Origin: Bacteroidota bacterium
Lineage (GTDB): Bacteria; Bacteroidota; Bacteroidia; Chitinophagales; Chitinophagaceae
Assembly: GCA_030706605.1 (NCBI GenBank)
Contig: JAUZOE010000005.1
Location: 124,001-188,000, forward strand
Length of the DNA stretch: 64,000 nucleotides
Reading direction: 5' to 3'
Both the position numbers and the translations under genes were made by a program. Of this stretch, positions 5,446-18,800 are shown in pieces. Position 1 is the stretch's first letter. Every line of letters starts with the position of its first letter. Under the pieces are notes generated by a model. The model did not search any database. It had not been told where the DNA came from and saw only the letters and a list, made by a program, of their open reading frames with translations.

Positions 5446-7050
5446 TCATGAAGGACTCACTATACAAAATTTCTGCTCCATTTTTAACGACGCATCATAT
5501 AATACTTTAAAAAAATCATTGCCCCATTTTGAATAAAGGAGCATGAAATTTTCAGTTCGCTCCTGCAAACCATCATCAGGGAATAATGCAGCAAATATTT
5601 TAGCCAATTGATTCTTTTGGGTTACAAATTTTCTTTTTTCTGCACGCAACATTTTCTTCTCCAGGTTAGTCAATAAATGTAATTGCTTTGTTTGTAAAGC
5701 TTCTGCATGCTGCTCCAGTGTGGAATCAATTTGTTTTACTAAGCTTTTTATATGGGTATAAATATCGCGGAACTGTAATTTTTCATTTTCTAAATTCAAC
5801 TGGTATTTGCTTTCTTTATTCACCATTTCATTCAGCAAAACCTCGCTGCCTTTAAAAAGATCCATCGCATTAATATCCAGTTTCGCTAATAATTGTTGAT
5901 ACTTTTCTTCTATAATCAAAAATGAATTCCTGACAATCAATACAGGGTAAGGAACTTTATAATTCTTAAAAAGATCTTTCAACTGCAGCCAATAGGCCAG
6001 TTCTCCCCCACCCCCAATCCACGCAACATCGGGTAAAATCACTTCCTGGAATAATCCACGTAAAATCACATTAGGACTGAAACGTTCAGGATGCAATTTT
6101 AATTCTTCCTTCATGGCTTCTTTTGAAAATACTATATCGGTATCATGAATTACAAAATGGTCATCAACGGGCACAATCCTGTTTCTCAGGTTATCTTTTA
6201 AATAAAACAGGTTGATTTCCCTGGGGTATGCCTGTGCTTTATATTTTTCCGCTAATTTTTCGGAAGTATGATTCACTATTTTAGACGAGGTATGATTAAA
6301 AATATCTTCTTCAAAAACAGCAATCATTTCTTTCTTAAAAGCAGGGTTATCGGGCAGGAAGACTAATAATCCATACTCTTTAAATAAATAATGAATCAAT
6401 AAAAAGGTGGCCTCCTGGATAGTCCTGTTTTTGGTAAAACATGTTTTTAAAAGTTCAATTATTTCATTCCCATATTTTTCAACGGCTAATCTTCCTGAAA
6501 TTTTCTCAACCAGCCCGATAAGATGCTCATCTACTATCATTCTCCCTACAGCGCCTTTTTGTTGAGTTTCCCATATATATTTTTCGCCACCAATTACTAC
6601 ATGATTCAATTCTTCCAGGTCTGCATCTTCGCTTCCCATAAAAAAAACCGGGACAAAATCATATTCCGGCAATTGTTTTTTTAAAGTATCGGCAAGCTTT
6701 ATGGTATGTAAAATTTTGTAAATAAAATAAAGATGCCCGGTAAATATATTGGGCTGGTGTGCGGTGCAAATAGTAAACGTCTTTTCACTCAGGAGACTAT
6801 CGATATTCGCTTTTACTTTCTCACATTCATTTATATCCTGGTACTGCTTACCGAATTCTGCTATTAATAATTGCCTGTTGGTATTAAAATTTTCTCTTTG
6901 AGCAATAGCGTCTTTGATTCCTTTAATATTTACACTGTGTTCGTAAAAGTCTCTTAAATCTTCTGACTCATTAATATAGTCTAAAACAATTTTTGAGAAC
7001 TTTCCTGTTTCAGAAAAAGGTAGGTATGTGGATTGAAAGGCCTGGCTCAT
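5446..7050 (-). CDS. bshC: Bacillithiol biosynthesis cysteine-adding enzyme BshC
   Basis: The protein has 534 residues, the usual BshC length. Recognisable blocks are the N-terminal AFQSTYLPFSETGKFSKIV, the HQPNIFTGHLYFIYKILHTIKLA segment region (family pattern GQQPGxFTGPLYTxYKxxxxIKLA), and VPVFFMGSEDADLEE (family VPVFWMASEDHDFEE). BshC joins cysteine to GlcN-malate in the last step of making bacillithiol, a cytoplasmic low-molecular-weight thiol found in many Bacteroidota and Firmicutes. bshA and bshB are not in the window. The C-terminal third is a long coiled-coil-like helix region. A -7 box at 7094-7101 fits a single-gene transcript. Confidence 0.93.
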   Translation of the reverse strand: MSQAFQSTYLPFSETGKFSKIVLDYINESEDLRDFYEHSVNIKGIKDAIAQRENFNTNRQLLIAEFGKQYQDINECEKVKANIDSLLSEKTFTICTAHQPNIFTGHLYFIYKILHTIKLADTLKKQLPEYDFVPVFFMGSEDADLEELNHVVIGGEKYIWETQQKGAVGRMIVDEHLIGLVEKISGRLAVEKYGNEIIELLKTCFTKNRTIQEATFLLIHYLFKEYGLLVFLPDNPAFKKEMIAVFEEDIFNHTSSKIVNHTSEKLAEKYKAQAYPREINLFYLKDNLRNRIVPVDDHFVIHDTDIVFSKEAMKEELKLHPERFSPNVILRGLFQEVILPDVAWIGGGGELAYWLQLKDLFKNYKVPYPVLIVRNSFLIIEEKYQQLLAKLDINAMDLFKGSEVLLNEMVNKESKYQLNLENEKLQFRDIYTHIKSLVKQIDSTLEQHAEALQTKQLHLLTNLEKKMLRAEKRKFVTQKNQLAKIFAALFPDDGLQERTENFMLLYSKWGNDFFKVLYDASLKMEQKFCIVSPS

Positions 7051-10545: not shown

Positions 10546-12237
10546 ATGCCCAACACTGACGACAATTCAATTTCACGACGAAAATTGCTTAGCTACCTGA
10601 CCACAGCTTCCATTGCTACAACCGGTTTATTGGCATCACCGGCAAAAGTCTTCGCAGGAAATAGTGACTTTGAAATACCTCCCCAGGATAAAAATTCGGG
10701 AACGAAGGTATTTAACATCCGCGATTTTGGAGCTGTAGGCGATGGTAAAACGCTGGATACATTGGCATTACAAAAAGCTATCGATGCCTGTACTAACGAT
10801 AAAGGAGGTATTGTATTGGTGCCAGCCGGTGTTTTTGTAATCGGCACAGTACAACTAAAAAGCAATGTTACCCTGCACATTGCTGCGATGGGCGTATTAT
10901 TAGGTACCGATGATGGCAAACAATATTATGCAGATAATACTATACCGCTCACCGGAGACACTACTTTAGATGATGGTAATGTAGGGTTGATATATGCTGT
11001 TGGGGCAGAGAATTTCAGTATCGAAGGTACCGGTACCATAGACGGGAACGGGGCGCGGTTTAGAAGTCCTGCAAAAGGAGTTCCGTCACCAGCGGGCATT
11101 AGCGATGAGCAACGTCCTTATCATCTTTTATTCTACCAGTGTAAAAATATTGCTGTCAACGGTATTTTTTTGAAAGACTGTGCCTATCATTCTCTCAGAG
11201 TGGTGCAGTGTGAGTATGCGAGGTTTGAAGGATTACATATTCATAGCCGTGTTATTCACAATAACGATGGGTTTCATTTTATCAGCAGCAGATATGTACA
11301 TGTAAGTAAATGCGATGTGCAGGTTGAGGACGACGCCTGTGCGTTGTTTGGCAGTTGCCAGTTTATTACGGTAAGTGATTGTTCTTTCAGCACCCGTTGG
11401 TCCATATTTCGCTTCGGCGGCGGCATTGCAGAAAATATAACGGTATCTGATTGTATCATATACGATACGTATGGATGTCCTGTAAAAATGCTGTGCGGGA
11501 GAGGTTCCCGTTTTGAAAACATTTTATTCTCCAATATTATTATGAAAAATGTTACCGGACCGATTTCTATTGGACTGACCACCGGACATGACGGTACTGA
11601 AGCGTTGGCTGATGTGCCCGGAATTGTACGTAACATTTCCTTTAACAATATAAGAGCTACTGTGGTAAAGCCGGTTACACCACCCTATGCGGAAGGAAAT
11701 GATTTCCACCCGGCTGAATTTTTTTCGTGTATAACACTGGATGCAATAGATGATGTATATCTTGAAAATATTTCTTTAAGTGATGTGCATGTTACTTTCC
11801 CAGGGGGCGGCACCGCAGAACAGGGTGCCTTACGTGATGTGCCCCAGGTGGCCGGAGAATATTTTGAAATGGGCGTTCCACCTTCGTATGCACTCTATGC
11901 AAGGAATGTAAAAGGCTTAACCCTTCAAAATGTCCGGTTTGAAAAAACAACCGCCGATGCAAGACCGGCAATCATATTCGATCATGTGGAAGATGCTTCA
12001 GTAAATGGTTTAAGTGTGCAGGGGGAAAAGACTGCTGAGTCAGTTGTACGATTTATCGACAGCAAATTTATTCTCCTTAATGCAGTAAGAAGCCTGACAG
12101 AGTCCTCTGTGTTTATGCAGGTGGAAGGGGCTGCATGTAACGATATCTCTATGTATGCAAGTGATATATCTAAATCAATAAAGCCCCTGAAGTTTAGTAA
12201 TGGGGCAAGCAACCGGTCGGTGAAGATGAACATTTGA
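10546..12237 (+). CDS. GH28-like right-handed beta-helix protein with Tat signal
   Basis: The protein has 563 residues. The N-terminus has a twin-arginine signal (SRRKLLSYL at 10-18, then a hydrophobic stretch ending near AKVFAG). The opening FNIRDFGAVGDGKTLDT is typical of pectin-lyase-fold GH28/PL9-like proteins. Of the GH28 active-site motifs, NDG (240-242) and EDD (261-263) are visible. The usual G-H-G block is replaced by sequence around STRWSIFRFGGG, and the R-I-K block by PVKMLCGRG. It is therefore probably a beta-helix glycosidase or lyase of unknown specificity rather than a plain polygalacturonase. Tat export suggests folding before secretion. Confidence 0.75.
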   Translation: MPNTDDNSISRRKLLSYLTTASIATTGLLASPAKVFAGNSDFEIPPQDKNSGTKVFNIRDFGAVGDGKTLDTLALQKAIDACTNDKGGIVLVPAGVFVIGTVQLKSNVTLHIAAMGVLLGTDDGKQYYADNTIPLTGDTTLDDGNVGLIYAVGAENFSIEGTGTIDGNGARFRSPAKGVPSPAGISDEQRPYHLLFYQCKNIAVNGIFLKDCAYHSLRVVQCEYARFEGLHIHSRVIHNNDGFHFISSRYVHVSKCDVQVEDDACALFGSCQFITVSDCSFSTRWSIFRFGGGIAENITVSDCIIYDTYGCPVKMLCGRGSRFENILFSNIIMKNVTGPISIGLTTGHDGTEALADVPGIVRNISFNNIRATVVKPVTPPYAEGNDFHPAEFFSCITLDAIDDVYLENISLSDVHVTFPGGGTAEQGALRDVPQVAGEYFEMGVPPSYALYARNVKGLTLQNVRFEKTTADARPAIIFDHVEDASVNGLSVQGEKTAESVVRFIDSKFILLNAVRSLTESSVFMQVEGAACNDISMYASDISKSIKPLKFSNGASNRSVKMNI

Positions 12238-12314
12238 TTTTTTTAGCCTTTGGTCTTCTTCTGCCCTTACTGGTGTTTCCAAAAACGCTTTCACACAGCA
12301 TAAAGGCATACTCC

Positions 12315-12492
12315 GCCGTTGGTTCGGTGTTAGTGCTGCAGGCTTTGTAGCTTAGCAATCACCAAGAACTCTTAAGGAGTTATGAACTAAACAAAATCTA
12401 AACTTACATTACTTTAAATACCTTAGCAGGAATAAAATTTCTTTATTATTACAGAGCTGCAAAGCCTTCTGCACGAACACAACATCGGCGGC
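12315..12492. repeat. Imperfect inverted repeat with 38-base arms
   Basis: Arm 12315-12352 and the reverse complement of arm 12455-12492 match at 28 of 38 positions without gaps; the best block is AGGCTTTG. The loop is 102 bases. Its position beside a lone AT-rich gene parallels the repeat at 5222-5334, though the sequences differ. It may be a mobile-cassette border or the remnant of a miniature element. Confidence 0.5.
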
Positions 12493-12608
12493 ATCTATTT
12501 TGTCTTTGTAATGCTTTAAATTTGGAAGAGAAGGAAGATCAACTGGGGCTAAATATTTTTTTTGTGATATTCAATATTTTGGTATAACCAAAAATAAATC
12601 TGGTAACA

Positions 12609-12616
12609 TATCTTTG
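12609..12616 (+). promoter_or_regulatory. -7 box of the SGNH hydrolase gene
   Basis: TATCTTTG is an exact TAnnTTTG match ending 8 bases before the ATG at 12625, which would give a transcript with almost no leader. Confidence 0.45.
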
Positions 12617-12624
12617 CGAGTATT

Positions 12625-13383
12625 ATGAGAGGTAAAAATGCACTTATACTAATATGCATAGTTTCTGTTTTCGCATTAATTGTTTTATTGTTTTATGTTA
12701 AACGGTTACGGTTTCAAAATAATTTAAAAGAACGTAGGTTAATTGAGTTATCAGTTAAGCCGCCTCATATTTCTCCCCCTTGCACTTATCAACTGAATTT
12801 ATTTGATTTTCATTATAAAAAGGAAACTGGTAACCCCAATATAATTATGTTGGGCAATTCATTAATAAGGCATGGTAAATGGGATAGTTTGCTTTCAAGA
12901 AAAGACGTTATTAATAGGGGAATTTCTGGAGATAGATTAAAGTGTATCTGCGAAAGACTTTCATATTTGGACGGGTACAATCCAAAGATATGTTTTATCG
13001 AAGGAGGAATAAATGACCTGCCAGGATCAAACCCTGATAGTTTATTTGAAGATTATAAGCAGATAGTATCTTATTTCAAGAAAAGAAAAATCATTCCGAT
13101 AATTAATCTCGTATTATTTATTAACCCAAGAGCCGGATTAAAATGGGATATTAGAAAGAACTATATTTCCATTAATAAGCAAGTCGCCTATCTAGACGAA
13201 AGGCTAATAGTTTATTCAAGCAGCGAACATATTACTTATATAGACCTTAATAAAAAACTGTGCCATGATAATGTACTGATGGATAAATATACTACAGATG
13301 GTGTCCATTTAACAAGTGAGGGTTATAGAATTTGGTCAGACGAAATAAAGAATATTTTGAAAAAATACAATATTAGAAGATAG
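12625..13383 (+). CDS. Membrane-anchored SGNH/GDSL-family hydrolase
   Basis: The protein has 252 residues. One N-terminal transmembrane helix (about 6-24) is followed by an SGNH fold: block I GNS with S79 in IIMLGNSL, block II NRGISGD (G102), block III GGIND (N130), and block V DGVH (D225, H228). Such enzymes are esterases acting on acetyl or lipid esters; the substrate is unknown. The anchor would place the active domain outside the membrane. The gene is rich in Lys, Ile and Asn codons and sits alone between repeat structures, which suggests acquisition. It is not closely similar to the secreted SGNH protein at 62700-63410. Confidence 0.8.
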   Translation: MRGKNALILICIVSVFALIVLLFYVKRLRFQNNLKERRLIELSVKPPHISPPCTYQLNLFDFHYKKETGNPNIIMLGNSLIRHGKWDSLLSRKDVINRGISGDRLKCICERLSYLDGYNPKICFIEGGINDLPGSNPDSLFEDYKQIVSYFKKRKIIPIINLVLFINPRAGLKWDIRKNYISINKQVAYLDERLIVYSSSEHITYIDLNKKLCHDNVLMDKYTTDGVHLTSEGYRIWSDEIKNILKKYNIRR

Positions 13384-13562
13384 GGGTTTAGTACAGACAT
13401 GGGCTATTTTATTTCCTATTCTTTTTGGCGGTGGGCTCCGCTATCGCTAGTTTGTCTCCAACCGAAAGTTGTGCTATCCTGAGTTTGTTAACTCAGAACT
13501 TATAAACATTAAATCTATAACAGAAATCCCATATTTAATAATCCGTATTTTATGACATACAT

Positions 13563-13586
13563 GTCCTTAGTTACAAATCTAAGGAC
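13563..13586. repeat. Perfect 8-bp hairpin
   Basis: GTCCTTAG and CTAAGGAC flank the 8-base loop TTACAAAT. No T-run follows, so it is not an ordinary terminator. Confidence 0.4.
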
Positions 13587-13699
13587 AGCGGCTCGTAATT
13601 ATTTAATCATTGTAGAGCGGAGGCAGTAAGAGTACTTAATTATTAAATGTCCCATCTTAGCGCAAGAAAACCTCTCTTCGTCAAACTGAAAAAAGTAAC

Positions 13700-13750
13700 G
13701 TTGGCGCAGGTTTGGTAGCTGAGTTAAGTGCGTTGGCGATACCTGTGCCA
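13700..13750. repeat. GTTGGCG-containing hairpin, possible recombination site
   Basis: TGGCGCAGGT (13702-13711) pairs with ACCTGTGCCA (13741-13750) at 9 of 10 positions around a 29-base loop. GTTGGCG occurs at 13700-13706 and again at 13732-13738. The second copy continues as GTTGGCGATACCTGTGCC, closely matching 5256-5272 in the repeat next to the nuclease-helicase. Confidence 0.45.
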
Positions 13751-13915
13751 TAATATTAAAACTGTAGCCATTATAACTAAGTCACCTTCTATTCACATGG
13801 TAGCGCGAGCATATGAAAAAGTGTTGCCCCTACCCGATAGTTCTAATATTTGTAAATCTCCTAAGGGGATATTCAGAGTTATAAAACCGGCACACATAAA
13901 CCATAAAACGTCTAT

Positions 13916-14157
13916 TGTATATCTATATAATTACGATTTTATACCCATCCAAAGACCATTGTATACCCATAGAATAACGATTGTATACCCTTACAAAGCC
14001 TATTATATACCCATAGAATGATGATTGTATACCCTTGCAAAGCCCATTGTATAACAATAGAATGATGATTGTATACCCTTACAAAGCCCATTATATAACA
14101 ATAGAATGATGATTGTATACCCATACAAAGACCATTGTATACCCTTATTTTGGCCAT
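13916..14157. repeat. Phased 22-bp tandem repeat array, 11 units
   Basis: Eleven contiguous units of exactly 22 bp with no indels start at 13916, 13938, 13960 and so on to 14136. Most begin TGTATACCC or a close variant and so carry the palindrome GTATAC or its decay products. Two unit types alternate in the middle: one continues TTACAAAGCCCAT, the other ATAGAATGATGAT, giving a 44-bp higher-order period. A more degenerate unit may precede at 13894-13915. Since 22 is not a multiple of 3, translations shift frame and no protein repeat is implied. The spacing is close to two helical turns, so all cores would face one side of the DNA. There is no repeat/spacer division as in CRISPR. Confidence 0.9.
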
Positions 14158-14426
14158 TTCGATGGCAACATGCCCGGCAGCAGGCATCATTTATAGGTCT
14201 TTCAGGGGACGAAATGTGGATAAATACTGTTTATATGATGCACTTTATACATTTTTTTTCTAAACCACCATGCCTTGTAATGCCCTGTTTACAGGCATGT
14301 AGCCCCGCAACGAAAAAGTGACTACTTTATCACATCCCATTTATGGGACTTGACGGGTATTGAATAATATTGGTACTTAGCATTCTAATTTACCAGTGAA
14401 TGAAATTCTAAAATCAAAAATCCAAC

Positions 14427-15056
14427 ATGATGAAAAAGCATCTGAGACAAGCAGTAAAAAACTTTAAAAGGTTGCCTGATTCCAAACTCCTGGTCTTTGG
14501 CCAAAATGTAACCGTATCTATGGCTATTGCTGTTAACTCCTTTCCCAACCCCATTCCTGCACTTGCCGACATTAATGCGGTGTTGATTGAGTACACCAGC
14601 CTGCTGCAATTGGCTACCTCCCGCAACAGGGTGCAGATAGCGCTGAAAAACCAGTGCAGGCAAACCCTAATAGGCATGCTTTCGCTATTAGTGGACTATA
14701 CCAACCTGGTGGCACAGGGGAACCCTGCTATGTTGGCGCAAAGTGGGTTTGACCTTAGTAAAATTCCTGAACCTATATGGATAACGGAACCCACTTACCT
14801 GGCGCTGAAGGATGGAAGCAACAGTGGCGAACTTACCCTGCATTGCAAACAGGTAAGAGGCGCTTTGAGCTACCTGTTCCAGTACACCTCCGATACACAA
14901 CTGTCTGAGGAAAGCTGGGTAAGCATAGCCGCTACCACGGTATCCTATACTTTTAAGAACCTGACCAGGGGTACTACCTATTACTGCCGTGTGGTGGCCA
15001 TAGGTGCTAATAAGCAAATGGTGAACAGCATCGTGGTGAACCGTGTGTCGCAATAG
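14427..15056 (+). CDS. Fibronectin type III domain protein with an N-terminal helical domain
   Basis: The protein has 209 residues. The N-terminal half (about 1-108) is helical and conserved-looking, with a core around RQTLIGMLSLLVDYTNLV and SGFDLSKIPEP. The C-terminal half (about 113-205) is an Fn3 domain: strand patterns GELTLHCKQV, SYLFQYTSD, YTFKNLTRGTTYYCRVVAIG. There is no signal peptide or membrane helix, so it may be cytoplasmic or exported by another route. Similar two-domain proteins occur in Bacteroidota without a known role. The codons look more GC-rich than in the preceding SGNH gene. It begins 270 bases after the 22-bp array, which may be its control region or part of the same mobile unit. 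ATG 14430 is an equally possible start. Confidence 0.75.
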   Translation: MMKKHLRQAVKNFKRLPDSKLLVFGQNVTVSMAIAVNSFPNPIPALADINAVLIEYTSLLQLATSRNRVQIALKNQCRQTLIGMLSLLVDYTNLVAQGNPAMLAQSGFDLSKIPEPIWITEPTYLALKDGSNSGELTLHCKQVRGALSYLFQYTSDTQLSEESWVSIAATTVSYTFKNLTRGTTYYCRVVAIGANKQMVNSIVVNRVSQ

Positions 15057-15099
15057 AGATGGTAGATAAACCTTATAAAATATCTGGTCGGGGGATAAT

Positions 15100-15555
15100 T
15101 CATTTCGGTTCCTCCAGCCTGAAATGCGTAACATCATATCTTTCAAATTCGTCTATGTATTTCTTTTGAAAGGCTTTAATCGCTGCTAACAATTTGGGGT
15201 TATTTAGTATTTCATAACTGTCAAGGTAACCGTATTGCTCTTGAAAATCCCTGTCTGCAAGTCTATAGGGCAGATAGTCTTTTATAACCTGGCTATTATA
15301 TATTTCTACTAAAGGCTGGCATTCATCATCCACTTCCATACTGATAAAAAACATAGGCTCGGTAAGTCCTCCATGCCTGAACCCATTAGTTTCGGGCGCT
15401 TCGGCCATGCCCGTGGCACAGATGCGATTCATTATATCATCTACCATTTTCTCATTATCATAGTGACAACTAATTAAAAAGTAGCGGGCCAGGTAAAGTT
15501 GCTTTGCCAGTTCTCTGAGTTCCTCCGCTGAAAATTGAATTGTAATTTCTTTCAT
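15100..15555 (-). CDS. Hypothetical acidic cytoplasmic protein
   Basis: The protein has 151 residues from ATG 15555 (MKEITIQFSAEELRELAKQLYLARYF); the frame extends 7 codons further upstream. I do not recognise the family. It is predicted soluble, mostly helical, acidic (DDECQPLVEI, FERYDVTHFRLEEPK), with no signal peptide and no catalytic motif. It converges on the Fn3 gene with a 43-base gap. Codon pattern and length support a real gene. Confidence 0.65.
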   Translation of the reverse strand: MKEITIQFSAEELRELAKQLYLARYFLISCHYDNEKMVDDIMNRICATGMAEAPETNGFRHGGLTEPMFFISMEVDDECQPLVEIYNSQVIKDYLPYRLADRDFQEQYGYLDSYEILNNPKLLAAIKAFQKKYIDEFERYDVTHFRLEEPK

Positions 15556-15671
15556 GATTTTTAGTTTGGGATTCAAAAGTTTTATATTTATTACACGACA
15601 GGTACAACTGACCGCTTCATTCGATATATAAATCCATCTTCTGGTGGCATGTTTTAATACCCTGGGCGTAA

Positions 15672-17201
15672 CTATAACTCTTTCCTTGTTTCATTTAATA
15701 AAGTTTTCAGCTCAAGTAATTTCTTTGGAAATTTTAAGGCAAGGTTGTCTGTTTCCTGAGGATCCGTTTTCAAATTATATAATTGATCTTCTTTGCTATA
15801 ACCACTTTCAATATTCACCGCTTTCAATAGCGTAGGGCCATTGCCGGGAGTTATGTATTTCCATCCATCTTTCACAATAGCCAAAGTATTATTTCCGGAC
15901 TGTTCAATTATATAATTCCTGTTTGTATTTTGCCTTCCTGTTAAGGTTGAGAAATAATCCCGGCTATCGGTAAATTCGTTTTCCGGTAATTTTTCATCCA
16001 GCATTTTTGCAAAAGATGCCATTAAATCTATTTGAGTGAACAAGGCATTTGAAATAGTGTGAGGTTTTATTTTATTGGCCCAATACACCATCATGGGAAC
16101 ACGGGTACCTCCTTCAAGTACACTATATTTTCCGCCCCGGTAAATACCGGCAGGCTTATAATGCTCAGCCAGTGCAGTTTCAGGTGATTGATCTAAATAA
16201 CCATCGTTCAATACGGGCCCGTTATCACTACTGAAAACTATCAAAGTATTGTCCAGCATTCCGCGTTGCTTTAATGCTTCCAGAATAATCCCAACTGTGT
16301 GATCCATTTCAAGAATGGCATCTCCGCGGTATCCCAGTTTGCTTTTCCCTTTAAACATGGTAGCCGGCATACGCGGCACATGTATATCATGAATGGCATA
16401 ATAAAGAAAAAATGGTTTTTTCTCTTCACGGCTTCTGTCAATAAATTCAATGGCTTTGGTATTGAAAGTAAGTCCCAGTTCTTCGTCTGTCCATTCCGCA
16501 CGCTTACCTCCTTTCATGTAACCAATACGACCGATGCCATTCACAATATGATAATTATGCCCCTGCATTGGATCATTTTTCATTTTCAACATTTCGGGAT
16601 GTTCTTTACCCAAAAGTTCCCCTGCAAAAGGGTGTTCATAACTTACATAAATCGGGTCGGAAGTATCTAAGCCAACTACGGTTTGATTCTCCATGAAAAC
16701 CGTAGGTGTGCGATCGGCTGTTGCCGGAAAAATAAATGAATAATCAAACCCAATTTCTCTTGGGCCGGGTGATACTTCTTTGTTCCAGTCAATGGGCGAT
16801 GTATTGCCCAAACCCAAATGCCATTTACCAATCGCCCCTGTAATATAACCCGCCCGTTTAAAAACTTTAGGTAAAGTAGTGATGTCAGTCGGGATAGTTA
16901 AATTCGCATTACCCGGCAAAATGCCGGTCCCTTTTTTACGCCAGGCATACCTGCCGGAAAGAATAGAAAACCTGGATGGAGTACATGTGGAAGCGGTACA
17001 ATGTGCATCCGTAAACCGCAACCCATTTTGCGCCAGCCAATCAATATGTGGGGTAGAAATAGCCGTAGCGCCATAACAACTTAAATCCCCATATCCTAAA
17101 TCATCAGTATAAAGAATTAAAACATTGGGCCTTTGCTGAGCTTTTAAATGAGTCACCAAAAACGCACATAACAAAAAGGTACACAGGAATACTTTCTTCA
17201 T
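15672..17201 (-). CDS. Secreted formylglycine-dependent sulfatase (S1 family)
   Basis: The protein has 509 residues. The signal peptide (1-21) ends LKAQ. NVLILYTDDLGYGDLSCYG gives the metal ligands D33 and D34. The sulfatase signature is C73-T-P-S-R77 within STCTPSRFSILSGRY, so C73 would be converted to formylglycine. GKWHLG and the later SSDNGP block (Ca ligands Asp and Asn) are present. Such enzymes remove sulfate esters from glycans in the periplasm or outside the cell. It lies 24 bases downstream of a second sulfatase on the same strand, so the two are almost certainly co-transcribed. No sulfatase-maturing radical SAM enzyme is in the window. Confidence 0.93.
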   Translation of the reverse strand: MKKVFLCTFLLCAFLVTHLKAQQRPNVLILYTDDLGYGDLSCYGATAISTPHIDWLAQNGLRFTDAHCTASTCTPSRFSILSGRYAWRKKGTGILPGNANLTIPTDITTLPKVFKRAGYITGAIGKWHLGLGNTSPIDWNKEVSPGPREIGFDYSFIFPATADRTPTVFMENQTVVGLDTSDPIYVSYEHPFAGELLGKEHPEMLKMKNDPMQGHNYHIVNGIGRIGYMKGGKRAEWTDEELGLTFNTKAIEFIDRSREEKKPFFLYYAIHDIHVPRMPATMFKGKSKLGYRGDAILEMDHTVGIILEALKQRGMLDNTLIVFSSDNGPVLNDGYLDQSPETALAEHYKPAGIYRGGKYSVLEGGTRVPMMVYWANKIKPHTISNALFTQIDLMASFAKMLDEKLPENEFTDSRDYFSTLTGRQNTNRNYIIEQSGNNTLAIVKDGWKYITPGNGPTLLKAVNIESGYSKEDQLYNLKTDPQETDNLALKFPKKLLELKTLLNETRKEL

Positions 17202-17225
17202 TTTATTATAATTTTTTCATAGTAT

Positions 17226-18800
17226 TTAATCCCAGTATTTTGAAAATATTTCCTTCATTACAGGGTACTGCTCATCACTGTCTCCTGCTTCTGCCTTCAC
17301 CTTCAACAATTCTACTTTTAGTTTTTGGATAATATTTTTATATTTTTTATCATTAATAGCATTGTGCAGTTCTTTCGGATCAACTGAAATGTCATAAAAT
17401 TCCCATGCCGGAGTTGTTGTTTCTTTGGATGCGCCCTTCATTCCCAAAGGTTGCCCATAATAAAAGATCAGTTTGTATTTACCCGTTCTGATTCCAAAGT
17501 GGCCCGGACGATCAGGGCTGTGCTCCCAATAACGATAATACATTTCCTTGCGCCAGTCTTTTGGCGTTTTGCCTTCCAGGTTGCTTCTGAAACTTCGCCC
17601 CTGGATAAAACCCGGTTTTTTCACTCCTGCATAATCCGCAAACAGTGCAGAAAAATCTTCATTGAGAACAATATCATTGATACGGGTTCCTCCTTTTATT
17701 TCTTTGGGATAGCGAATTACAAATGGCATACGCGATGACTCTTCATACATCATCCGCTTATCGAAAAAGCCATGCTCTCCCAGGAAGTATCCCTGGTCTG
17801 CTGTATAGATCACTACGGTGTTTTTGGACAGCCCTGCTTTATCAAGATAGTCTAATAACCTGCCAAGGTTTTCGTCTATGGCTGCTCCACAGCGCAAAAA
17901 ATCTTTGATGAATTTTTCATAAATCTTTTTCCTGGCTTGCAAGCTATCCAGTCCTTCAATTGAAAAAGGCATACCGGGATAATCTGTCCAGAATTTTGTT
18001 GGATTTTTTTGATACGCTTCCCATCTCTTTTCAAGGTTCTCCAGTTTTTGCCCATTGAAACTCCTGCCATTGGTCTGCGGACCAAAATCGTACAAAGAAA
18101 CCGGTACAGGAATATCTGTATTCTTATACAAATCTTTTAAACGGTCAGGATATTCAAATGGTTCGTGTGTCGCTTTAAAATGAACCATTAAAAAAAAAGG
18201 TTTTTTAGTATCTCTATTCTTTAGCCAATCTATTGAGTAGTCTGTAACCACATCTGTATTGTAGCCGGGATATTTCTTTCCGGCCTCAATGCCGTCATCC
18301 TGCCAGTCAGCCTCGGTTTTAAAAACCGGGTCAAAGTAAACCCCTTGTCCCGGCATTACCATGAAGTGATCAAACCCGGAGGGTTCTTTTTTCAAATGCC
18401 ATTTACCGATCAAGGCGGTCTGGTAGCCACTTTGATGCAGCACTTTTGCGATATTCATACTATCAGGACTTAGCGCATCTCCCAGCGTATAGACGCCATT
18501 GCGATTACTGTACTGCCCCGTCATAACCGTTGCCCTGCTAGGCACACAAATGGAATTAGAACAAAAAGCATCATTCAATACCGCTCCTTCTGCGGCAAGC
18601 CTTTTAATATTTTTATTCTTTACATAATCTTTTAGCACTCCACCATAAATACCCCATGCCTGCGAAGTGTGATCATCTGCCATAATATAAATAATATTGG
18701 GCCTGTCTGAATGATTTGCCGCAGAGGTTTGAGCATGAACGGCTGCTCTCTGAAAAAAGAAAATGAGAACTGTGGCTAAACAAGTAAAAGTAATTTTCAT
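17226..18800 (-). CDS. Secreted formylglycine-dependent sulfatase (S1 family)
   Basis: The protein has 524 residues. The signal peptide (about 1-24) ends VHAQ. PNIIYIMADDHTSQAWGIYG holds D42 and D43; the signature C85-V-P-S-R89 sits in SICVPSRATVMTGQYSNRNG. GKWHLKKEPSGFD, HFKATHEPFEYP and TADQGYFLGEHGFFDKR are typical of iduronate/heparan-type sulfatases, and the C-terminus resembles the usual small subdomain of that group (EFYDISVDPKELHN). It is first in the operon with the sulfatase downstream. Together with the fucosidases it suggests a sulfated fucose-rich substrate; that link is inferred. Confidence 0.93.
   Translation of the reverse strand: MKITFTCLATVLIFFFQRAAVHAQTSAANHSDRPNIIYIMADDHTSQAWGIYGGVLKDYVKNKNIKRLAAEGAVLNDAFCSNSICVPSRATVMTGQYSNRNGVYTLGDALSPDSMNIAKVLHQSGYQTALIGKWHLKKEPSGFDHFMVMPGQGVYFDPVFKTEADWQDDGIEAGKKYPGYNTDVVTDYSIDWLKNRDTKKPFFLMVHFKATHEPFEYPDRLKDLYKNTDIPVPVSLYDFGPQTNGRSFNGQKLENLEKRWEAYQKNPTKFWTDYPGMPFSIEGLDSLQARKKIYEKFIKDFLRCGAAIDENLGRLLDYLDKAGLSKNTVVIYTADQGYFLGEHGFFDKRMMYEESSRMPFVIRYPKEIKGGTRINDIVLNEDFSALFADYAGVKKPGFIQGRSFRSNLEGKTPKDWRKEMYYRYWEHSPDRPGHFGIRTGKYKLIFYYGQPLGMKGASKETTTPAWEFYDISVDPKELHNAINDKKYKNIIQKLKVELLKVKAEAGDSDEQYPVMKEIFSKYWD

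Follow-up and report, generated by a model that had tools for sequence, protein, structure and literature searches.

Tandem arrays of fixed 21- or 22-bp unit length and locus-private sequence accompany a family of helical + Fn3 genes

Is the pairing of a perfectly phased 22-bp repeat array with a downstream helical + Fn3 gene a property of one locus or of a whole gene family, and, in the latter case, which property of the array is kept? The locus lies in a 64,000-nucleotide stretch of Bacteroidota DNA (hereafter the window; part of contig C45 of our set), in a genome assembly of 4.27 Mb in 71 contigs that we refer to as the own genome (G000). A preliminary description, made from the letters of the window, had read the array as a row of phased protein-binding sites and had proposed that array and gene form a pair. 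The features with which we are concerned are the following.

13899..14158, no strand assigned: array with a 22-bp unit repeated about 11.8 times, in two alternating types (periodicity searches)
14159..14426, no strand assigned: gap between array and gene (sequence comparison)
14427-15056, + strand: gene for a 209-aa helical bundle + Fn3 protein (ORF, AlphaFold2, structure matches, Pfam)

The array itself is as regular as first described: the 242 bases from 13916 divide into 11 gapless 22-bp units (13916-14157), and Tandem Repeats Finder reports 0% indels both at period 44 (13914-14141, 5.2 copies, 88% matches, score 309) and at period 22 (13914-14144, 10.5 copies, 67% matches), with a lag-22 segment search placing the edges at 13899-14158. 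On average, odd units are 75% identical to one another and even units 88%, compared to 68% between the two sets, such that the proposed two-type alternation, with its 44-bp super-period, is real. The claim that most units keep GTATAC holds only barely (6 of 11 units), and the dyad-symmetric core of the array is TTGTAT-N4-ATACAA. The periodicity of this array (z = 18.3) excludes a chance origin, as none of 435 dinucleotide shuffles of the upstream regions of homologs exceeded z = 6. A BLAST search of the array against its own genome gave no second match at E ≤ 0.001. Sigma-70-like matches are more frequent in 13380-15100 than in shuffles (13 vs 5.5), but 11 of the 13 lie in the array or at its edge and simply recur with its repeat, and we therefore do not read them as promoters. 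In the gap, 118-129 bp are approximately 70% identical to the gaps of two Ginsengibacter orthologs, and an imperfect inverted repeat, CATGCC...GGCATG, lies at 14269-14299. We also note that the surrounding region (10546-18800) resembles a polysaccharide-degradation region, with a GH28-type gene, a GDSL hydrolase and two sulfatases, the first three named by Pfam and the second sulfatase by our own reading of the sequence.

The gene, which starts approximately 270 bp downstream of the array, does encode the 209-residue helical + Fn3 protein that had been predicted from its translation. The AlphaFold2 model (pLDDT 96.1) comprises an N-terminal helical bundle (helices 18-34, 46-65, 68-96 and 100-105) and, at the C-terminus, a domain that is matched best in the PDB by Fn3 domains; the Pfam fn3 match of this protein (E = 0.0011) falls under the Pfam cut-off, and 29 of 37 family members have an fn3 match at E ≤ 0.1. 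Searches of these 37 members with Pfam, NCBIfam and PADLOC recognized no DNA-binding domain and, besides the fn3-like domain, gave weak and scattered matches. We were also unable to assign a known fold to the N-terminal bundle, as Foldseek returned no match at E ≤ 0.001 and the VIA matches were within the noise for bundles. The proteins are mildly basic (median pI 8.6, n = 88). The first two helices diverge slightly more in amino-acid sequence than the Fn3 domain does (0.35 compared to 0.29, with the excess seen in 32 of 42 pairs); we do not take this as diversifying selection on the first helices, however, since the excess is small, dS is likewise raised in the clearest pair, and there is no clear diversification of specificity residues.

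Relatives of the window protein occur in 24 of 195 genomes of its taxonomic family (E ≤ 0.001). With our profile A1 they were found in 52 of 394 genomes at E ≤ 1e-20, and in 4 of 10 within the genus, while in a sample of the phylum ten of 395 genomes have the N-terminal domain at E ≤ 0.001, three of them by weak, partial matches only. Named records with the family include Pedobacter planticolens, Bacteroidetes MAGs and two Verrucomicrobia MAGs; phage and plasmid records gave no match, nor did viral contigs, which were searched with a narrow query. The own genome has eight copies of the gene, including a broken one (L066, G000:C1:213725-214338) with its match split in two pieces and a shorter array of 5.7 units. 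Five of these eight copies lie approximately 5 kb or less from a contig end (C39, C22, C32, C21 and C9), which suggests unresolved repeats close by, and one copy is flanked by long tandem arrays of approximately 122-123 bp (L061:2-572 and 5857-6332).

To relate array to gene, loci were collected by protein similarity alone: 133 family hits were reduced to 89 by identical protein stretches, and two of these, with <300 bp upstream, were dropped, leaving 87 homologs. The 1000 bp upstream of each start codon (set by profile) were then tested for periodicity at 29 lags (12-40), with a threshold of z > 6. The top lag was 21 or 22 above this threshold in 74 of the 87 distinct homologs (67 at 21 and 7 at 22, with the highest z being 23.4), a count to be read with the caveat that the loci are mutually related and hence non-independent, and at none of the 87 loci was lag 20 or 23 the top peak. 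Eleven homologs lie at z ≤ 6, among them L060 in the own genome and 6 of the 12 loci of genus g71, and 7 of these 11 peak at 21 nonetheless. At two further loci (L050 and L184) the top peak is a pentamer microsatellite, with a weaker 21-bp array present in both. In the own genome, an array stands beside 7 of the 8 gene copies; arrays are found also in other Bacteroidota families (L084, L085 and L115) and in one (L117) of the two Verrucomicrobia MAGs.

The corresponding background is low. Of 462 control segments of 1 kb from the own genome and the window, seven exceeded z = 6, and only three did so at lag 21 or 22, two of them in a single orphan locus (L187, discussed below) and one (L198) in apparent coding sequence. 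In 20 stretches of a congener (G045; 780 half-overlapping segments), the sole lag-21 signal lies within a 747-aa open frame, where the periodicity is heptad-like (L217:17667) and illustrates a source of false positives for scans of this kind. Arrays and helical + Fn3 genes are thus a linked pair, as had been proposed. Neither of the outcomes that would have reduced the array to a slipped-strand satellite, variable unit lengths or a lack of any linked gene family, was found.

What is kept in these arrays is the length of the unit and not its sequence, as units at different loci are mostly unrelated (e.g., TACATAAGGAAGGGCTTCCTGA with 22 bp, and CGGGAGAAGGATGTCTCCCAT and GTAAAGTAATATGGAAATGCC with 21 bp each). 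The arrays considered here and below are 59 with a segment score of at least 12 (58, 54 or 53 of them once arrays with too few units, or with a 22-bp unit, had been set aside), or a first set of 30 with a score of at least 15, from which L050 and L044 were left out. The 59 arrays have a median of 11.8 units and a median gap to the start codon of 200 bp (5-95%: 47-483); their edges are degenerate, and 13 of the 59 show clear higher-order repeats. The suggestion that the spacing is the conserved feature is therefore borne out, as is its reading as approximately two turns of DNA, whereas the proposed key, GTATAC or TGTATACCC, fails: tandem TRTATACCC (≤1 mismatch) gave 8 matches in 8 of the 195 genomes of the taxonomic family outside the own genome, while the reversed control gave 12, also in 8 genomes, and a search of the own genome with ≤3 mismatches was likewise not above its reversed control outside the array itself. 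The core TTGTATN4ATACAA (≤1 mismatch) has 37 sites in the own genome, 6 of them in the array and approximately 31 dispersed, compared to 15 for the reversed pattern; as this pattern is a rough control, we claim no trans targets from the approximately twofold excess.

Unit length, in turn, follows the protein tree. On a tree of 88 proteins (L066, at <190 aa, was left out), the 22-bp label, carried by seven rows, requires 3 changes compared to a shuffled mean of 6.9, and none of 500 shuffles was as low. All three Ginsengibacter orthologs (the window, L067 and L157) have a 22-bp unit; L148, a member of the other 22-bp clade, has a weak peak at 21.

The sequence of an array can be replaced while its surroundings are kept, as seen in three sister pairs in which the arrays are unrelated or nearly so between flanks that are 75-89% identical. 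L062 and L063, from the same genome, encode proteins that are 80% identical, with 82% homology from -273 to +619 that ends at the array edge, and a gap that is 86% identical; yet the best unit identity between their arrays, both of 21 bp (11.4 and 12.7 units), is 9/21 (p = 0.92). In L073 and L074, homology is found on both sides (-994 to -827 at 78%, and +33 to +686 at 75%) of arrays of 16.9 and 17.1 units of 22 bp, where the identity of 13/22 (p = 0.02) suggests that a weak resemblance may remain. L158 and L160 share 218 bp of upstream flank at 88.5%, approximately 200-380 bp off the arrays and not touching them, and the best unit identity is 10/21 (p = 0.73). Related arrays are also kept, as in L127/L150 (19/21, with copy homology running from the array edge to the stop codon), L125/L161 (18/21), L063/L066 and L062/L071 (both 16/21) and the window with L067 (17/22). 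Among 56 protein pairs with at least 45% identity, unit lengths differ in 6; in the 50 that are comparable, array similarity is present at p < 0.01 in 11 and absent in 39. The best match of L067 to the window array is in reverse orientation, but we have dropped the claim of an array inversion between these orthologs because dyad-symmetric arrays resemble their own reverse complement. The loss of similarity at constant length, beside non-coding DNA that is 86-89% identical, is the strangest of our observations; it would be compatible with replacement by a different array, with synthesis anew or with very rapid change.

The symmetry of the arrays offers a further clue to what they are. Dyad symmetry exceeds that of column-permuted arrays in the first set of 30 (Fisher, 7e-20), and against a dinucleotide-preserving null the 59 arrays have 6.59 complementary pairs compared to 5.73 (Wilcoxon, 1.8e-9; Fisher, 2e-4), with 10 of 59 reaching p < 0.05 individually. 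The self-inverse identity of whole arrays is 0.535, compared to 0.443 under column permutation, with 35 of 59 at p < 0.05. Helically phased, dyad-symmetric sites ahead of the gene are thus a trend across the set that individual arrays need not show; the arrays of L040, L046 and L072 have no dyad. At the dyad pairs of the 30 arrays, non-Watson-Crick cells are G.T in 173 cases, A.C in 152 and other in 459, and the arrays fold better than column-permuted ones to a similar extent on both strands (z = -1.99 on + and -1.83 on -), such that there is no strand bias; nor is there covariation, as double changes do not compensate each other (355 compared to 369 expected; 54 arrays). Dyads without strand bias have the symmetry of double-stranded DNA, which fits sites with two equivalent half-sites and speaks against structured RNA or hairpins. 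The units of 58 arrays are not distinguished by intrinsic curvature (mean rank 0.50 compared to permuted units, 2 below 0.05 and 3 above 0.95), and a Bacteroidota-type promoter pattern occurs in only 2 of 30 gaps.

Arrays can, however, exist without the gene. In approximately 860 kb sampled from two genomes, we found a double array (L187:8725-9279, G000:C1:28724-29278) in which 7.7 units of 22 bp are followed by 13.6 units of 21 bp. The double array is intergenic, with tRNA-like genes on one side and, approximately 240 bp downstream of it, a type I restriction R-subunit-like gene on the other (names from our own reading of the sequence); no Fn3 gene is nearby. Its 21-bp part is 67% identical to its own reverse complement over 324 bp; its 22-bp part matches the window array at 14/22 positions (p = 0.014), and from this resemblance could possibly be a distant relative. 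A short 22/44-bp array with strong palindromes (L229, G000:C12:178692-178819) shares flanking sequence with this orphan (77% over 128 bp). The gene therefore implies the array far more than the array implies the gene.

The observations to be accounted for are linkage, fixed unit length, private sequence, turnover between conserved flanks, dyads and the lack of strand bias. Binding sites lined up along a single face of the DNA would most simply explain a two-turn spacing that is fixed, together with dyads and a sequence private to each locus, and we consider it probable that the array is bound by protein. That array and gene form one two-part module, with the array serving as double-stranded DNA sites that are filled cooperatively, is in our estimation nearly an even call. 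In such a module, the array would act in cis as approximately 12 dyad-symmetric candidate binding sites, one every 21 or 22 bp and thus all on one helix face, and their cooperative filling would build a nucleoprotein filament upstream of the gene, with a unit sequence that is private to each locus and may be exchanged, and a two-turn spacing that may not. The protein encoded next to the array is our leading candidate for the binder, since the array accompanies its gene and has a unit length that tracks the protein tree. We make this assignment tentatively, with a partner encoded elsewhere as the other candidate; against it, no DNA-binding domain is recognized in the family and the protein is only mildly basic. 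The array would most likely serve to control, across the gap, how the gene itself is expressed, although we regard autoregulation as rather doubtful. Against the module as a whole stand the orphan array, the dyad-less arrays and the low share of arrays that reach significance singly under the dinucleotide null (10 of 59), the 11 of 87 homologs at z ≤ 6, the rarity of the promoter pattern in the gaps, the lack of clearly diversifying specificity residues and the related arrays in 11 of 50 sister pairs. In its boldest form, this reading has the helical + Fn3 protein keeping a DNA address of about a dozen sites, with an exact two-turn spacing, a sequence rewritten wholesale in place and an identity of its own for most copies, which we consider speculative; the part of it by which the array would be private in sequence and templated in length, and a product of no recognized CRISPR, retroelement or plasmid machinery, we hold with the same reserve.

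The alternative that survives best is that a regulator or nucleoid protein of the host, encoded at another site, binds the array, with the Fn3 gene as its target only and a two-turn unit that would hold sites and promoter on one face as the copy number changes. The lack of a recognized DNA-binding domain in the family and of any common neighbor able to be the binder would agree with this, as would the position of the orphan upstream of a restriction-subunit-like gene, but a sequence private to each locus is ill-suited to one common regulator, and unit length follows the protein tree; we regard this alternative as unlikely. It is less likely again that the array is a site for maintenance or mobility (iteron-, centromere- or transposon-end-like) that serves the duplication, spread or persistence of array and gene. 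The spacing is iteron-like, the own genome has eight copies, copy homology can span array edge to stop codon (L127/L150), and neither of the two flanking genes tested turned up in nine congeners (a search with no positive control); on the other hand, no Rep, Par or transposase is common to the neighborhoods, phage and plasmid records are without a match, and, with those flanking genes not found, no empty site was seen.

That the array is a neutral satellite, maintained through slippage and unequal exchange and tied to the gene by descent only, is in our view improbable. Homogenization can hold a period without selection, unit length is inherited, and degenerate edges and higher-order repeats would be expected of it, but it is harder to reconcile with a unit of exactly 21 or 22 bp in different genera and in two phyla, linkage at 74 of the 87 homologs, dyad symmetry, and the loss of array similarity beside well conserved non-coding flanks. 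That the array is transcribed, as a structured RNA or a source of small RNA, is very unlikely: the better folding of the arrays is found on both strands, strand bias and compensatory changes are lacking as described above, and an Rfam search of the window gave no match. A heptad-repeat peptide can be set aside almost entirely, as, despite the seven codons of a 21-bp unit and a slight excess of open frames (1.47 compared to 1.00 of 6 in column-permuted arrays), none of the six 22-bp arrays tested has a frame free of stops, and an open frame is likewise missing from 18 of the 53 21-bp arrays, in keeping with the description of the window array as non-coding.

How do these arrays compare with known systems? 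Iterons are direct repeats approximately two helical turns apart in a row, private to each replicon and beside a Rep gene. The present arrays share this layout of two-turn direct repeats of private sequence beside one gene. Unlike plasmid iterons, they lie on contigs, in several copies per genome and without a plasmid-record match, their units are dyad-symmetric, and no Rep-like protein was recognized among the 37 members (Pfam and NCBIfam) or as a common neighbor; the proposed likeness to iterons thus holds in layout only. With tandem operators they share sites that are dyad-symmetric, helically phased and positioned upstream of a gene, but usual tandem operators have few sites, whereas here there are approximately 12, with a sequence that differs at nearly every locus and a regulator that is only a candidate. 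The ParR/parC and ParB/parS centromeres likewise combine private repeats with a small gene; here, no group of neighboring genes is common to more than three loci, barring open frames inside arrays, and there is thus no constant motor gene. Like CRISPR and other spacer arrays, these are regular arrays beside a gene family, but the whole unit repeats contiguously without spacers, no neighbor gene is common and PADLOC gave no convincing match, which upholds the initial exclusion of CRISPR. With bacterial VNTRs and satellites they share degenerate edges and, in 13 of 59 arrays, higher-order repeats, but differ in dyad symmetry, in a single linked gene family and in a unit length that is constant over two phyla.

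To our knowledge, known arrays of this layout (iterons, tandem operators and centromeres) go with identified DNA-binding or replication proteins, and a literature search, with subscription journals and preprints mostly outside its reach, returned nothing comparable in the texts as far as they were accessible. We therefore rate fixed-length arrays of private sequence beside helical + Fn3 genes as a new kind of array, whose function we infer, and in the combination of a fixed 21- or 22-bp length with a gene-specific sequence we see the sign of a two-part genetic module not described before. The linkage, which is statistical in nature, is strong and extends over genera and two phyla; it concerns a protein family whose N-terminal domain is without a curated model; as length is conserved and sequence is not, alignment-based annotation misses these arrays. 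If the array is bound by its neighbor, the family would provide dozens of natural, private protein-DNA pairs that share one geometry, and a rewriting of the arrays in place would imply an array-making process that is not yet known.
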